A stretch of 64,000 nt of DNA from Candidatus Poribacteria bacterium (GCA_022822005.1 JAJECO010000008.1:124001-188000), one strand, 5' to 3'; positions 18,861-34,595 are shown, counted from the stretch's first letter. Program-made: numbers and translations. Notes: a model not told the origin generated them from the sequence alone.

Positions 18861-19811
18861 CTAAAAGTTTGAAATGAGTGAAAACCGGTGGGCAGCGCCG
18901 AGTTTGCCGTAGGAGACAAAGGCGTAGTCAAGCTGAAATCCTTCAATGCTGAATCCGATTCCGCTGGTGATGCCGGAGGCTGTTCCGAGATCGTTGCCGC
19001 CGAGTCTATATTTGTAACCCGCACGCAGGTGGATGAGCTCGTAGGCGGTGAACGCCGCGCCCACGCCAACGGTGGGGTCATTGTCGCTGGGACGGTTTAC
19101 ATCGGCGGTGAGGGTGAACGCCTCGTCGATCAATCTGTACGCCGCACCGACCTTGATGTTGAGGGGCAGGCTAAAGGATTCCTCAACGAACTTGACCTTG
19201 GCTCCGAGATGTTGGACATTGAATCCGAGAGAGATCGAATTGTTGAGGATAGCGTACAGGCCTCCTATATCAAACGCGACGACCTGGGCACTTTCGGTGT
19301 CAATCTTTTCGCGAACCCATTTGGCGTTGGCACCCAAAGAGAGCGCACCTCCAAATCGACGAGCATAGGAAGCGATTAGGGCAAGATCATAGGGGTGGAA
19401 GTTTTCCGTTTTAACTGGCTCGCCACTCTCATTAATGTCGTATCCTTCAAGCTCGCCATAGGAGAGGTAGATGAGACTCCCGCCGAGTGTGCCCGCGTCT
19501 CCGAGGGGCTGTGCAAAGCCGATGAACTGGTGGTTAATCCCTTCAAACCACTCGTTGTGCATGAGTCCGAGCTGCGGACGCTGCAGTTGGGCAAGTCCCG
19601 CCGGATTCCAGTGTGTCGCATACAGATCATCTGCAACGGCGACCTGGGATTCTCCCATGCCGATGGCTTTCGCCCCAACACCGATCTTCAGGAATGTCAT
19701 CGCCCGCGTTCCGACGTTTTCATGGATGTCAGCACCATTGGCGACCGTCCATGGGCACAGCGCGATTCCGCAGAGTATAAGAAGGCTTAGATATCTATTA
19801 AATCTTGGCAA
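18861..19811 (-). CDS. PorV/PorQ family outer-membrane beta-barrel protein
   Basis: Signal peptide; 'GTRAMTFLKIGVGAKAIGMGESQVAVADDLYATHWNPAGLAQL'. Confidence 0.88.
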   Translation of the reverse strand: MPRFNRYLSLLILCGIALCPWTVANGADIHENVGTRAMTFLKIGVGAKAIGMGESQVAVADDLYATHWNPAGLAQLQRPQLGLMHNEWFEGINHQFIGFAQPLGDAGTLGGSLIYLSYGELEGYDINESGEPVKTENFHPYDLALIASYARRFGGALSLGANAKWVREKIDTESAQVVAFDIGGLYAILNNSISLGFNVQHLGAKVKFVEESFSLPLNIKVGAAYRLIDEAFTLTADVNRPSDNDPTVGVGAAFTAYELIHLRAGYKYRLGGNDLGTASGITSGIGFSIEGFQLDYAFVSYGKLGAAHRFSLISNF

Positions 19812-27459: not shown

Positions 27460-29382
27460 CTACCACCAGCTATACACGGAGGAGGTGAGGATGAGGCTCA
27501 AGATGGGCCAGAAGCAGCCCATGACCGCTTCGCCGAGCACCAGACCTACGAAAAAGGGAATAGCGGCGCGATATGCTTTGATGCCGCCGTGCCTGATCAG
27601 CAGCCACTTGGTAATCATTGCGATTGCTACAGGGAACCAGATCATATCTGTTGTTCCGGGTGCAAGACCGATAACGTAGCCTGCCGGGTGAAGTGGACAC
27701 CAAACGAAACGAGCACGCAGAAACATTATACCGAGGTTCACAAAGAAAGCAAATCCGAGGACACCCATTGACAACCAATTGGTTGGCTTGGGATTGACCA
27801 ACCACCCAGAGAGATAGTTATAGGTTCCCGCCCCGCCGGCATGAATCTGTTCGGACCCCGCTGCAACCCCTGTTTTGTAGATTGTATATGGGTACAGGAT
27901 GAGACTGGATTCAATGCCAACGATACTGGCAATGATTAACGCAATGAACATGGTTCGGTTTCTGATGTTGGTTCGTTCTGCCAGCTTGAAGGACTCAAGT
28001 TGGTCGGGTATCGGGTGGGTGCGAAACCCGGCACCACTCATCCAGTTCATCAACGAGAGTATCGTTAAATTCCCCGGTTTTAGGCGTCGTGTCCCGAACA
28101 TAGCGACCATCATGTATTGTGGATTTATGTAGCCAATGGAGTGAATTGGAGGTCCCAACTCCGCCCGCATACGCGCCAATCCGACAACGATTGCGAAGTA
28201 GAGACCGATGAAAACGGCGTAGCCCCAAAGCGACATCCCACCCTTTATGCAGAAAACCATCAACACAAGGAGACAGATAAACAGCGTGGCGACAGCAGCT
28301 CGGTAAGAGATTGGCTCGTTTGCCTCATCATTTGGATCTGGACGGATGACACGCGAGAAGACTTGCAGGAAGTGTCTTCTGCCGGTCCAACAGGTCACGG
28401 CGAGTAAAGCGAACAGGGCACCCGTGCCTTGCTCCCCCAAGAATGGGTATCCGGGAATGCTCCTGATACCTGCCATGCTGCCGAAGACAAGTTGTGCCTT
28501 CCGCAAGAGGTAGAAGAAGGTGCATGAAAAAGAGAGGTCCAAGGGAAGGACAAAAGAGAGACCGATGAGATATGGGTGAAAATAGAAGGAGGTGCTGCCC
28601 ATCGCATTCCACGGTTTCTGTGAAAAACTGAAGACGTTTCTGGTGCGGTCATTAATGGGCAGAGAAGGGAGGATGGGGAAGAAAAATGCGATCCCGTTCC
28701 ACAGGTCAATCCCGAAAGCAAGACCAAAACCGATCCACAGGACACGATTCCTGAAGATGCTTCCAGAGTCGGCTGTGATTTCTAGGGGAATTTGGATAAT
28801 CGGATACGCCAATTTCTCACGGTCAACCCACTGCCTTCTGATGAGCGATGTTAGGCAGAGGAAAATAAGCATCAATGAGAAGATGACGACCGACCATGAT
28901 AGGATGGGCGTCACCCAATAGCGTACGTAGCCGTCCGCAAAGAAATTGACATTTCCCTCGTAGAAATCGTTGACGGTTTTCGGGTCGGAGATGACCAACC
29001 AATCTGGCAAGTGATGGAAAAGTAACGCTGCCCAATCGTTTTCGGGGGTCGCAAAGCGAAAGGCGTAGGGCATCAACCCCATTAAGCGGGGCATCGCGTC
29101 GTGCCCAGAGAAGCAACTTCCCACCGCAAGCATCGCGTAGATAACGAGTAGGTCTTGTTGATTGAGGGCAGACTTTGGTGAGACTTGACGGACAATTATG
29201 TTCAGCCACGTTATCATTAGGACAGCAAACATGACATTGACCGACAGCGAAACAGTTGTCAGATGCGCAGTATGCCATATCATTTCGACATAGGCGATCC
29301 AATAGCTGTTAGCGATGATTAGCAGCACGCCGATCAGCATCGCACGCTTTTTAATTGAGGTTGTCGTATTTGTGTCCTTCAT
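27460..29382 (-). CDS. Large polytopic membrane protein (DUF6784/DUF6785-like)
   Basis: About 640 aa with many hydrophobic segments; 'RAELGPPIHSIGYINPQYMM', 'HPAGYVIGL'; family name assigned from memory of similar proteins. Confidence 0.6.
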   Translation of the reverse strand: MKDTNTTTSIKKRAMLIGVLLIIANSYWIAYVEMIWHTAHLTTVSLSVNVMFAVLMITWLNIIVRQVSPKSALNQQDLLVIYAMLAVGSCFSGHDAMPRLMGLMPYAFRFATPENDWAALLFHHLPDWLVISDPKTVNDFYEGNVNFFADGYVRYWVTPILSWSVVIFSLMLIFLCLTSLIRRQWVDREKLAYPIIQIPLEITADSGSIFRNRVLWIGFGLAFGIDLWNGIAFFFPILPSLPINDRTRNVFSFSQKPWNAMGSTSFYFHPYLIGLSFVLPLDLSFSCTFFYLLRKAQLVFGSMAGIRSIPGYPFLGEQGTGALFALLAVTCWTGRRHFLQVFSRVIRPDPNDEANEPISYRAAVATLFICLLVLMVFCIKGGMSLWGYAVFIGLYFAIVVGLARMRAELGPPIHSIGYINPQYMMVAMFGTRRLKPGNLTILSLMNWMSGAGFRTHPIPDQLESFKLAERTNIRNRTMFIALIIASIVGIESSLILYPYTIYKTGVAAGSEQIHAGGAGTYNYLSGWLVNPKPTNWLSMGVLGFAFFVNLGIMFLRARFVWCPLHPAGYVIGLAPGTTDMIWFPVAIAMITKWLLIRHGGIKAYRAAIPFFVGLVLGEAVMGCFWPILSLILTSSVYSWW

Positions 29383-29423
29383 AACAGGAAATAGGCGAGG
29401 ATTCTGTAGAACATCAGAAAGAA

Positions 29424-29454
29424 GAAAGCCCCACACCGAACGGCGGGGGCTTTC
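29424..29454 (-). terminator. Candidate rho-independent terminator
   Basis: On minus strand GAAAGCCCC-loop-GGGGCTTTC followed by TTCTTTCTG, downstream of the 29503-30264 gene. Confidence 0.55.
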
Positions 29455-29502: not shown

Positions 29503-30264
29503 TTAACGTTTCTTCAGCATACCCCAGGTGGTAGTCAGCTTATTACCCGGTTCAACAGATCGTCCCTTGAGGCCGGTAACAAATACATTGTCAAACGCAG
29601 CGGTGGCACCCTCTGTGCCCACGCCGACACGACCTCCTTTACTGCCGTTTATATCCTTTCCTTCATAGATTAACTCATCGTCAAGAAACATCTGGATGAA
29701 GAGACCTTGATTCAAAATTTTGATATGTAGGTCATCTCTTCCCAGCTTGTGTTTTGACTCAGTCCCTTTTTTGATGTCGGTAATGCCTCTGACATCTCGA
29801 ATAACAAACGACTCACTGTTCTTCCATCCGATCTCCCACCAAAACTTGATACGGGCTTTTTCATCGGCAAGCCGTCCCTTAACGGGAGCAGGAAGCGTAA
29901 ATGACCGGGCGTCGTCTCTGCCGGGACCGGGCTGCAGATCATCTTTGATCCGCCAGAAGATGCGAACCCCGTTACCGCCCCTTAATTTTCTTGCGGTCAA
30001 CTCAAAGATATATTCGTTCCAAGTATCATCCCAGAAATCATCCGAAACTACAGCGATAGTACGCCCATCAGCTTGCCCCTGTTGGAGCGCGCCTCCCTGT
30101 ACTTCCCACGCGCCTTGTAAAAACGACCATTTTTCCGCGGTACGGTTTGGCTTTGAAAAATTATCCTCAAACAGAACCTGCGCTGTAGCAGGAGAAGCAA
30201 GTAGGATGAGCGCAACCAAGCACGCCCCTACAAAATTACATGGAATTGATAATACTTTCTTCAT
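29503..30264 (-). CDS. Secreted LamG/concanavalin-like protein with C-terminal TTWGxLK motif (paralog 1)
   Basis: Signal peptide; 'VLFEDNFSKPNRTAEKWSFLQGAWEVQGGALQQG...FWRIKDD...FDNVFVTGLKGRSVEPGNKLTTTWGMLKKR'. Confidence 0.7.
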   Translation of the reverse strand: MKKVLSIPCNFVGACLVALILLASPATAQVLFEDNFSKPNRTAEKWSFLQGAWEVQGGALQQGQADGRTIAVVSDDFWDDTWNEYIFELTARKLRGGNGVRIFWRIKDDLQPGPGRDDARSFTLPAPVKGRLADEKARIKFWWEIGWKNSESFVIRDVRGITDIKKGTESKHKLGRDDLHIKILNQGLFIQMFLDDELIYEGKDINGSKGGRVGVGTEGATAAFDNVFVTGLKGRSVEPGNKLTTTWGMLKKR

Positions 30265-30312
30265 ATCCCTCCCTTCTAGGGATAAACGGCTACATACAAC
30301 AACAAAGATTTA

Positions 30313-31119
30313 TTAACGGGTTTTCAGTGAACCCCAGGTGGTTGTTATTTTACCGCCGGGTTGAACACCTTGTCCCTTGAGGTCAGTGATAACAAAGTCA
30401 GAAAATTCGACAGCTGTGGCATGGGTACCGAGAGCGATCCTGCCCCCCTTATTGGCACCATTGATTTCCTTGCCTTCCCAAACCAGTTCATCGTCAAAAA
30501 ACATCTTAAGAAGTATCGCATCATTTTCAATTCTGATGCGATGCTCTTTGTTTTTCGCGAGCTTGTGTTTTGAATCTGTGCCCTTTCTGTCTCTGGCAAG
30601 TCCATTAATATCTCTCACCAGAACAGACGTTTTGGCCTCACGACCCAGATCCCACCAGATTTTAATGCGACCTTTGCCAATATCTCCAAGCCGTCCCTTT
30701 GCACCGGCTGCACCCAAGCAAAACGAACTGTTAAAACCGCCACCACACTCTCTGCCGATCTGTTCTTTCATATCATCTCTGATCCGCCAGAAGATGAGGG
30801 CACCATTGTCGCCTCTGAGTTTCTTTACGGTCACCTCGAAAATATACTGCGTCAGCGCGGTTTCCTTGGCATCAAATTCTTCTGTCCAAGCGGCATCTGA
30901 CAGGTACGCCATTGTGCGATCTACTACCGCACCTTGCGTCAATTTACCGCCTTGAACTTTCCAATCTCCTACGGCGAACACCCAGTTGTTCTTCGATCTC
31001 TCTGCGTTTTTGAAGTTATCCTCAAAAAGGATTTTCGCCGTAGCGGTAGAGGATAAAAAGAGGCTCATCATAGCGCTGGCGAATATGAGGGTGAATAGTA
31101 ATGATAGATTTCTTTTCAT
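30313..31119 (-). CDS. Secreted LamG/concanavalin-like protein with C-terminal TTWGxLK motif (paralog 2)
   Basis: Signal peptide; 'ILFEDNFKNAERSKNNWVFAVGDWKVQGGKLTQG...FFDDELVWEGKEING...GVQPGGKITTTWGSLKTR'. Confidence 0.7.
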   Translation of the reverse strand: MKRNLSLLFTLIFASAMMSLFLSSTATAKILFEDNFKNAERSKNNWVFAVGDWKVQGGKLTQGAVVDRTMAYLSDAAWTEEFDAKETALTQYIFEVTVKKLRGDNGALIFWRIRDDMKEQIGRECGGGFNSSFCLGAAGAKGRLGDIGKGRIKIWWDLGREAKTSVLVRDINGLARDRKGTDSKHKLAKNKEHRIRIENDAILLKMFFDDELVWEGKEINGANKGGRIALGTHATAVEFSDFVITDLKGQGVQPGGKITTTWGSLKTR

Positions 31120-31371
31120 TTTAGCTCCCTCCTTATCTCTATAAAACAACCTGTTCCGAATTTTAGGACATCGTAAGTACAGTGTTAAATTACTTCAGTT
31201 TTGACGGATTATAAGAAACACCGAAGTCTTTGTATTGAATCTTTCCCGATGCTTAAACTTTCGCTTTTGGATAACAGTTCGTGATACCTCGGTGTAAGCA
31301 TCATGGTCAAAAGCATTAACGCAAACACCGTCGAAATCACATCTGTCTGTATCCAACAAGAGATAAAAATA

Positions 31372-31407
31372 AAGCGTGATACACTGATTTAACAGCGCAT
31401 CACGCTT
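31372..31407 (-). terminator. Rho-independent terminator
   Basis: Minus strand AAGCGTGAT-18 nt-ATCACGCTT followed by TTATTTTTATC, downstream of the 31426-32385 gene. Confidence 0.7.
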
Positions 31408-31425
31408 CATGTTTGGACTATGCGA

Positions 31426-32385
31426 TTACAGTCCTTGTCTTGCATTCAGCTTAATATTGCCCCACGTCTGCGGGAGCTTATCTTTCGGGCTGACAGCGCG
31501 CACACCGATGAACTGGAGATCACCGTAGATACAGACATTGTTGTCATTCTCAAAGGATGACGCCCAAGAGATAGAACCTTCACGACTCTCGCCTGCGGCT
31601 TCATGGTCATTCATCGTGGAGTCAAATCCGACGACGACTCCATCTTCGAATTCCGCGGGCTTGATGGTCGATATGGTCATTCCCTCTTTATAGTCAAGGT
31701 GAACTTCCATGATCATGCCATCACCGGTCTGGGTAGCCGCTGAATTTGCCGTACAATCTTCATCGAAGACGTGGACATCACCGAGAACAGCGTTCTGCCC
31801 ATGGTTCCACCAGCACGCAGGTTCGGAGGTGCCGCCGCCGGTCCACGGTTTAATCCGCCACCAGTGATCGCCGGGCTGCGGTTTACAGCAGTCAACTCCT
31901 GAGAGTTCCCGGTCATCATTTCCCCTGGGTGTCCGGCACGCGTTGTGCTCGAAGTCGAACTCAAGCCATAGCTCAGAAGTGTGCGGTGCGGTGGGCCCGC
32001 CTTTGTTCTTTGCCTCGCCGCTATTGATATCAGTGGGCAAATTCGCGTCCTTGATTACGCCAACGTAGTAAAGACGCTCCTCGTCAAAGAGAAATCCAAA
32101 GTCGTTACTCAGATCATCAGCATCATCAATCGTGCCTCGACTCACTCGGTTTGGTGAGGTTTCCTCAAATAGGAACCAATCTGGAACGCGTTCGACATCC
32201 ATGTGCATGTCGGCAGCCTGATACTCAGCCCAGTGTTCCTGAAACTCGTCATCAACCTTGCCATCGAGTTCAGGTGGCTTTTGTGCGAAGAAGGCTTTTG
32301 CCTTACCGCCCGAATGAGCAAAAACAAATGTTGCAGAAAATAGCATTATTAACGCCATCGTGAATAGAATAGCGTACCTAAACAT
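31426..32385 (-). CDS. Secreted CBM9-like (sugar-binding) protein with C-terminal TWGxIK motif
   Basis: Signal peptide 'MFRYAILFTMALIMLFSATFVFA'; 'AQKPPELDGKVDDEFQEHWAEYQAADM'; ends 'VSPKDKLPQTWGNIKLNARQGL'. Confidence 0.65.
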   Translation of the reverse strand: MFRYAILFTMALIMLFSATFVFAHSGGKAKAFFAQKPPELDGKVDDEFQEHWAEYQAADMHMDVERVPDWFLFEETSPNRVSRGTIDDADDLSNDFGFLFDEERLYYVGVIKDANLPTDINSGEAKNKGGPTAPHTSELWLEFDFEHNACRTPRGNDDRELSGVDCCKPQPGDHWWRIKPWTGGGTSEPACWWNHGQNAVLGDVHVFDEDCTANSAATQTGDGMIMEVHLDYKEGMTISTIKPAEFEDGVVVGFDSTMNDHEAAGESREGSISWASSFENDNNVCIYGDLQFIGVRAVSPKDKLPQTWGNIKLNARQGL

Positions 32386-32606
32386 GGTTTTATCTCCTCC
32401 AATTTTAAGTAAATTGATAAAACGATGGGTCAGACCCATCTGAATTTGCGCAATTTATTGCGCTGTTAAACAACTCGATTTTAATTTTTCAGACGCGATA
32501 CAACGGAATTGACACTGTACCTCGCCTGTTGACGCGCCGTTGAACAGATATTTATAGCGCGCTCACACTTTTTCAAAGCGGTCTATCCCCCTCATACTAA
32601 CATGGG

Positions 32607-33416
32607 CTACTGCCCCGCTTTCAGCTCACCCCAAACCGTTGCCAATTTACCTTTCGCTTCAACGGAGAAGGGATTCCCTTCAGGTGTCGTAACAAACACA
32701 TCATCTACCGTTATCTTGCCATTAACGGTGCCAAAACCGATACGACCTTCGCCCCCGATGTTGAGATCCTTTTTTCCTAAGGCCTCAAGGTCAACAATAG
32801 CTTCACCAAAATTTCCTGCAGCCACTGCTCCTGGTTGATCGCTGAGGTACAACTTATAATACTTTGCCGAGTTTTCGACTTTGACATAATAGTCTTCGCC
32901 GGCACCGATCTTTGTTTTGGTTTCGGTGATTTCAAATGCCTTGATAATAGTTCGCACATCACGTTGGACGACTGCACCACCCTGGTTGAACCACCAATAG
33001 ATCACGTGACGACGACCACTCTCTTGCATCTGTTTGGGCAAACTTCCGGCGGGAGAAAAGTTACCGCCCTGTGAACCATCACTGTGAAACCGCCAGAAGA
33101 TGGCTGGTTCAGAACCGGCCGAAATGCGGATTTTTGCGTAAAGCCAATAATCAACCCATTCTGGATCCCAGTGGTCATCGGCCACTATGATTAGGCTTTT
33201 GTCACCCGATGTATTTCTCAATTCTCCGCCTTGAATGTTCCATTTACCGAGGGCGACATGCCATTTACCTGAACCGTCTAATTTTCCACCCCTGAAATTA
33301 TCCTCAAATAGGATCTCTATGGCTTGAACGAAACTCGGTGCGATGATCGAGAAACCTGCCAGAACTGCAATTGCCACAAACAGGGATAGTCTGGGCAAAC
33401 TGTTAGTTTTGTTCAC
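32607..33416 (-). CDS. Secreted LamG/concanavalin-like protein with C-terminal VWGxLK motif (paralog 3)
   Basis: Signal peptide; 'ILFEDNFRGGKLDGSGKWHVALGKWNIQGGELRN...GRIGFGTVNGKITVDDVFVTTPEGNPFSVEAKGKLATVWGELKAGQ'. Confidence 0.7.
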   Translation of the reverse strand: MNKTNSLPRLSLFVAIAVLAGFSIIAPSFVQAIEILFEDNFRGGKLDGSGKWHVALGKWNIQGGELRNTSGDKSLIIVADDHWDPEWVDYWLYAKIRISAGSEPAIFWRFHSDGSQGGNFSPAGSLPKQMQESGRRHVIYWWFNQGGAVVQRDVRTIIKAFEITETKTKIGAGEDYYVKVENSAKYYKLYLSDQPGAVAAGNFGEAIVDLEALGKKDLNIGGEGRIGFGTVNGKITVDDVFVTTPEGNPFSVEAKGKLATVWGELKAGQ

Positions 33417-33584: not shown

Positions 33585-34595
33585 TCAGTCTTTTTTCCTA
33601 AATTCTTCGACCGCTTTTGTTGCTTCTAGCGTATCGACTTCCAATAATGCTTCGAGCGCATGGTAACGGACGCCCTTATGCTCGTCTTCCAACGCCTTCA
33701 CCAACACAGGTATGACACCTTGAGCGGAATTTGCCACGCCGCCCAGCGCCGTAGCGGCTTCTTCGCGAATATGCCATTCTTTCGTTTGCAATGCGTCTAT
33801 CAACATCGAGATTGCCTCTTCAACCGGCTCACCGATTTTCCCCAACGCAATGGCAGCGGAGAGGGCAATCTTCTCATCCCCATCCTCCAAGAGTTGTGTT
33901 AATGTCGGCACAGCTGCTTGCGCTGACTTACCAATCTGTCCCAATGCGCCGATAGCGTAGCGGCGTACCCCTTTATCTTCGTCTCCCAATGCCGTTATCA
34001 ATTCTGGCACAGCTGCTTGTGCCGGCTTACCAATCCGTCCAAGTGCTTCGGCGGTCCGACGACGTACCCCCTTATCCTCGTCTTGCAGCGCAACTATTAG
34101 TGTCGGCACAGCTTTGTGCGCCGATTCACCAAGTTTACCCAGCGCTGCCGCAACTTTGGAACGAGCCCGCGGATCTTTATCCTTTAGCGCTGCTATCAGT
34201 GCGGGAACGACATCTTGCGTATGATTTCGGCCAAGCTTCCCCAATATTTCGGCGACCTTGGCACGAACCGTAACATCTTCATCCTGCAATGCTGCTATCA
34301 ACGCGGGAATGGCACCTGTAGCCGGTTTTCCCATTGTGCCCAGTGCCATTGCGGTATATCGACGCACATGTTTATCTTCGTCCTTTAGTGCTTTTACTAA
34401 TAACGGCAGCACTTCTTCTGCATGCCCCTTGCTCGTCCGAACCAATTCCTCGGCAGCAGCGCGGCGGACGACGGGGTTCTCGTCACTGAGTTGTATTTCA
34501 TAAATATCCGCGCTGTGCCCGCTAGAGTCAAACGGTATCACCATCAGAACGACAAAGAACAGAAAGACAGAAAATAACAGTATTCTTGATTTCAT
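33585..34595 (-). CDS. Secreted/periplasmic HEAT-repeat protein
   Basis: Signal peptide; repeats of AVPxLIxALxDEDKGVRRxxAEALGxIGKxAQA at about 33-aa pitch. Confidence 0.9.
   Translation of the reverse strand: MKSRILLFSVFLFFVVLMVIPFDSSGHSADIYEIQLSDENPVVRRAAAEELVRTSKGHAEEVLPLLVKALKDEDKHVRRYTAMALGTMGKPATGAIPALIAALQDEDVTVRAKVAEILGKLGRNHTQDVVPALIAALKDKDPRARSKVAAALGKLGESAHKAVPTLIVALQDEDKGVRRRTAEALGRIGKPAQAAVPELITALGDEDKGVRRYAIGALGQIGKSAQAAVPTLTQLLEDGDEKIALSAAIALGKIGEPVEEAISMLIDALQTKEWHIREEAATALGGVANSAQGVIPVLVKALEDEHKGVRYHALEALLEVDTLEATKAVEEFRKKD

Follow-up and report, generated by a model that had tools for sequence, protein, structure and literature searches.

Results

The window, by which we mean the whole stretch of 64,000 nucleotides of a Candidatus Poribacteria genome that was analysed, holds four neighbouring open reading frames on the minus strand, all of which (4/4) encode a signal-peptide-like N-terminus and a nearly identical C-terminus, hereafter the WG tail; on both points the original prediction was borne out, the C-termini being as it had quoted them. 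Protein 1 (29503..30264, 253 aa) joins its signal peptide to a weak lectin/GH59_C-like body, the GH59_C lectin Pfam match (E=0.0024) lying below the cut-off, and ends in SVEPGNKLTTTWGMLKKR (29506..29559; strict motif at G000:C93:153512-153541, profile E=5.3e-9). Protein 2 (30313..31149, 278 aa), 47% identical to protein 1, has a signal peptide, a weak 3-keto-disaccharide-hydrolase-like body and the tail GVQPGGKITTTWGSLKTR (30316..30369; strict motif, profile E=1.4e-7). Protein 3 (31426..32385, 319 aa) ends in AVSPKDKLPQTWGNIKLNARQGL (31429..31497; strict motif, profile E=5.6e-8). Its full open frame spans 31426-32439, within which the ATG at 32385, the start given earlier, is the likelier one, and its body is CBM9-like, as had also been claimed, with CBM9_1 scoring 28.7 bits against a Pfam cut-off of 23.4. 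Protein 4 (32607..33416, 269 aa), which carries SVEAKGKLATVWGELKAGQ (32610..32666; strict motif, profile E=1.1e-9), has no Pfam match and is a remote paralogue of proteins 1 and 2. The earlier description of proteins 1, 2 and 4 as LamG-like paralogues stands as to paralogy; LamG was a guess at the fold class with no Pfam result behind the name, the proteins matching 3-keto-disaccharide hydrolase/lectin-like Pfam profiles below the cut-off or none at all.

A membrane protein of ~640-660 aa (27460-29436, minus strand) adjoins the cluster, and an exported HEAT-like-repeat protein that lacks the tail lies upstream of it (33585-34595, minus strand). Membrane proteins that look similar to the former by eye occur near the SprA gene described below (L252:214-2151 and L256:4649-6568), possibly by coincidence.

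The consensus of the tail is [AS]-V-x-P-x-x-K-L-[AT]-T-x-W-G-x-[IL]-K, usually followed by three residues, for a total of ~20. Searched as DNA in the 6.0 Mb source genome (G000), the strict pattern K[LIMF]xxxWGx[LIM]K gave 34 matches against 0 for the reversed pattern; a looser initial pattern matched as often as its control and was uninformative. All 34 strict matches, 30 outside the window and the window's own four, lie in open frames 2-12 residues ahead of the stop. A profile of 21 positions, made from source-genome tails, had 85 matches in that genome at E<=10 and 46 at E<=0.001. Among 75 further tailed proteins the Trp was present in 75, V(-10) in 74 and K(+4) in 73. Position is equally constrained: every profile match at E<0.01 (448/448) lay no more than 11 residues from the C-terminus and none was internal, in a count over 5209 ORFs from 248 fetched loci and the window, where loci had been selected for the tail and internal matches would have been counted. 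K(+4) stood exactly 3 aa before the C-terminus in 195/293 tailed proteins, which indicates that register to the C-terminus matters. By alignment the tail is polar and has neither the Cys nor the Gly-Gly of transpeptidase substrates, and no model in Pfam or, for the 14 tailed proteins searched there, in NCBIfam matches it.

The original prediction had proposed a motif search of the source genome and its relatives, and a profile to be compared across folds; both found the tail widely, the profile in all Poribacteria genomes examined (85/85) with 18 to at least 104 copies each, 104 being close to the scoring limit for many genomes, and on unrelated bodies. A scan of ~85,000 species genomes with a stricter pattern that included the stop codon, for which fewer than one chance match is expected by our estimate, placed 79 of the 80 loci among the matches listed in Candidatus Poribacteria. 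The lone listed outsider is a 6.2 kb contig assigned to "Peregrinibacteria" (JACPXZ010000020.1), whose tailed gene encodes a LamG protein ~37% identical to poribacterial ones and is the sole match in a 1.1 Mb bin. We considered horizontal spread to Peregrinibacteria and rejected it in view of the single match, the small contig and the poribacteria-like LamG; the contig is probably misbinned, a contamination of the public bin. The tail is therefore phylum-wide in Poribacteria and practically absent elsewhere among the matches listed. We found no earlier description of it in the open-access literature and, as far as that literature shows, it is undescribed, although C-terminal sorting signals as a kind are already known.

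Carriers of the tail are overwhelmingly predicted to be exported. A signal peptide was found in 178/181 tailed ORFs (~98%) and, by the same crude criterion, in 141/491 untagged neighbours (29%), and only 2/181 carriers had a hydrophobic segment beyond residue 60. Lipobox matches, also by a crude criterion, numbered 18 among 295 carriers and look like chance Cys residues near the signal peptide. Far from being confined to proteins with full-length homology, the tail occurs on 28 BLAST body clusters among 295 distinct tailed proteins, several small clusters of which may be remotely related, and on at least seven Pfam families above cut-off (Laminin_G_3, PD40, Kelch, DUF4960, 3keto-disac_hyd, CBM9_1 and F5_F8_type_C), so that its bodies include LamG, TolB/PD40 and Kelch propellers, CBM9, F5/8C and others. 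The modularity claimed from the four window proteins thus extends to the wider set. In one region of the source genome, PD40/TolB-like propeller paralogues with WG tails form an extended array (L081 and L082, G000:C41:14000-40343).

The tail is more conserved than the bodies that bear it. In 1431 LamG pairs identity was 30% for the body and 63% for the tail, the tail being the more conserved in 98% of pairs, and for CBM9 family pairs the values were 27% and 63%. All 22 distinct CBM9 homologues of protein 3 that were compared have kept the tail, down to ~26-28% identity. At the invariant residues all synonymous codons are in use (six for Leu, four for Thr and four for Gly, for example), which means that the peptide is the conserved entity.

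An AlphaFold2 model of one LamG carrier (54 sequences, mean pLDDT 85) closes with a strand at 203-211 and a helix at 217-225; the tail, residues 231-247, lies beyond both and is the sole segment with pLDDT <50. In this model the tail is a flexible segment external to the LamG fold, contrary to the concern that it might simply be the last strand of the LamG/CBM fold. For window protein 1, modelled from 7 sequences, confidence was poor throughout and lowest at the tail, too poor for use. The hydrophobic moment of the tail peaks at 160 degrees (0.55, against 0.31 for shuffled sequences) with no helical signal at 100 degrees, which suggests that the tail is more likely a strand than a helix when bound. 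A helical peptide of the encapsulation type was rejected on the same grounds, the helix that AlphaFold draws for the tail of the LamG carrier being of low confidence.

For comparison with the tail profile we built a profile of the type IX secretion system (T9SS) type A C-terminal domain (CTD). The two signals never occurred together on one protein among 450 tailed and 18 CTD proteins in the loci. They do occur on homologous bodies. Within the source genome, a PD40 propeller with a type A CTD (L101:1538-2968, contig C57) is 43% identical over 225 aa (E=2e-50) to one with a WG tail (L081:15904-16875, contig C41). In a second family two CTD proteins, L306 and L304, match the tailed L071 at 33% over 229 aa (E=1e-30) and 31% over 229 aa, respectively, and a third, weaker pair of bodies (L313 and L096) shares 28% over 163 aa. 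Judged by this homology, in at least two families of bodies the C-terminal signal can be of either kind, WG tail or type A CTD.

Kamke et al. reported TIGR04183 domains in Poribacteria in 2014 and saw no structural secretion genes (PMC3909097). We find a single-copy SprA/Sov-like protein of ~2200 aa (TIGR04189) in 82/83 genomes and in 0/14 controls, with matches mostly below the equivalog cut-off; the one in the source genome (L252:7870-14382 on contig C44, 2170 aa, single copy) matches at E=1.5e-43. The presence of this translocon-like protein in nearly all genomes reopens the 2014 statement. Type A CTDs were present in 83/83 genomes. PorV/PorQ-family proteins exceeded the cut-off in 21/21 genomes, with 14-24 in each and 16 in the source genome, and PorU-like C25 peptidases were found in 21/21 genomes at E ~1e-86, yet below the family cut-off. 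A search of nine genomes for the motor protein GldM, run without a positive control, found none. One PorV/PorQ-family outer membrane protein is encoded in the window itself (18861..19811, minus strand, 316 aa; NF033709 E=4.4e-65, G000:C93:142864-143709) and is a candidate type IX shuttle, whose action on the tail is only putative. By coordinates, no tailed genes are evident beside PorV or SprA genes. On the window's contig, a PorU-like C25 peptidase ORF of ~2080 aa (G000:C93:226172-231471) is directly followed by a PorV-family gene, and a similar CTD-PorV gene pair lies at C58:181387-182892; such adjacent pairs suggest dedicated shuttle-cargo pairs.

Discussion

Our results favor the view, to which we give a probability of roughly 60%, that the WG tail acts as a modular recognition or sorting signal at the C-terminus, read by an envelope receptor that delivers or anchors the proteins, most likely by way of a divergent T9SS. 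The best evidence for equivalent roles of tail and CTD is their alternation on homologous bodies; this exchange does not prove that the same machine is used. The sorting or anchoring function proposed originally is to that extent supported; the preference for sorting over docking remains an inference, strengthened by the exchange. The carriers, given their predicted signal peptides, would cross the inner membrane by Sec, after which an envelope receptor would read the flexible tail and the protein would be delivered to, or anchored at, the outer membrane or the surface of the cell. We take the phylum's divergent type IX system, with its SprA-like translocon and many PorV-family shuttles, to be the likeliest route, in which the tail would complement the type A CTD as a second signal of miniature size. 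One translocon is known to serve several signal families via specialised shuttles (PMC12618676, PMC10202324), and type A CTDs have a near-invariant Lys, close to their C-terminus, that is important (PMC10994853). We regard the T9SS as the leading route because a translocon and many shuttles are present, because specialised shuttles are known (PMC12618676) and because the Lys offers a parallel (PMC10994853). The surface destination, the T9SS route and the identity of the receptor are all inferences, and the co-occurrence of tail and SprA cannot discriminate since both are near-universal in the phylum. More tentatively, the tail could form a fourth class of T9SS signal, a foldless peptide of ~20 residues read by SprA and a PorV-family shuttle and employed throughout Poribacteria next to the classical CTD; known T9SS signals are folded and at least 100 aa long (PMC12618676, PMC10202324). 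Sorting may also be two-layered, another route operating first and the tail later.

The main rival, which we consider unlikely, is that the tail is a docking peptide with no role in transport, binding a periplasmic or surface scaffold in the manner of a dockerin and so assembling carbohydrate-binding proteins. Many of the bodies are indeed lectin or carbohydrate-binding folds, and a flexible, strand-like amphipathic tail outside the fold is as found in binding by strand addition. However, TolB and Kelch propellers are not obvious clients of a scaffold, and the replacement of the tail by type IX CTDs on homologous bodies fits equivalent sorting better than docking.

Less probable still is that the tail addresses proteins to a secretion or anchoring enzyme of its own, as yet unrecognised, specific to Poribacteria and unrelated to the T9SS. 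In favour of this, the tail is confined to Poribacteria among the matches listed, whereas the T9SS is not, and tail and type A CTD have no similarity and never share a protein in the loci. No candidate enzyme was found, though, and the tail has none of the features of a transpeptidase substrate, be it a membrane helix, a Cys or a Gly-Gly. That the tail is merely the last strand of a LamG/CBM fold, or a relic of common descent of its carriers, is a reading that the four window proteins alone would permit, three being paralogues, but it is highly improbable given 28 body clusters, a tail that lies beyond the last LamG strand and helix at pLDDT <50, and its persistence while bodies diverge. It is equally improbable that a DNA or RNA element is being conserved at the ends of genes, with its translation incidental: the tail does adjoin the stop codon, but its invariant residues use every synonymous codon.

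Poribacteria are an uncultured, sponge-associated phylum that is dominant in many sponges. With dozens to over 100 exported carriers in each genome, the tail would, if our preferred reading of it as a sorting signal holds, define the proteins that are displayed or secreted towards the animal host, and offer a simple sequence rule for listing them. Should the tail prove to be a fourth class of type IX signal, a minimal peptide would suffice as an address for a T9SS translocon. A length of 20 residues would also make the signal practical for use in fusion experiments.

Short common C-termini led to the discovery of the sortase, exosortase, rhombosortase and myxosortase systems. PEP-CTERM, GlyGly-CTERM and LPXTG resemble the WG tail in having been recognised as such C-termini on unrelated exported proteins, but they consist of a motif, a membrane helix and a basic cluster, whereas the WG tail is soluble and stands at the very end. 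Nearest in distribution is MYXO-CTERM/myxosortase (TIGR03901), whose C-terminal tag is universal in its phylum and is borne by dozens of exported proteins in each genome (PMC11980579); this tag has an invariant Cys motif, a transmembrane helix and an Arg cluster, and the WG tail has none of the three. Lacking a membrane helix, the tail is not PEP-CTERM, LPXTG or MYXO-CTERM, and it fits neither the profile nor the fold of the type A CTD, in agreement with the original statement that the motif is unlike T9SS CTDs, PEP-CTERM and LPXTG. The type A CTD (TIGR04183/PF18962) is a folded, seven-strand Ig-like domain of about 70-100 aa, and the type B and type C CTDs, at about 100-235 aa, are set apart by their described length, whereas the WG tail has ~20 aa, is unfolded in the model and shows no sequence similarity to the type A domain. 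With T9SS substrates in general the carriers share a Sec signal peptide (178/181) and a conserved C-terminal signal, in genomes that encode a SprA/Sov-like translocon and the PorV family. With the type A CTD in particular the tail has in common that, as a C-terminal signal, it occurs on many unrelated bodies of Sec-exported proteins in the same genomes, that the two swap on homologous bodies, and that its K(+4) recalls the Lys near the C-terminus of the CTD (PMC10994853).
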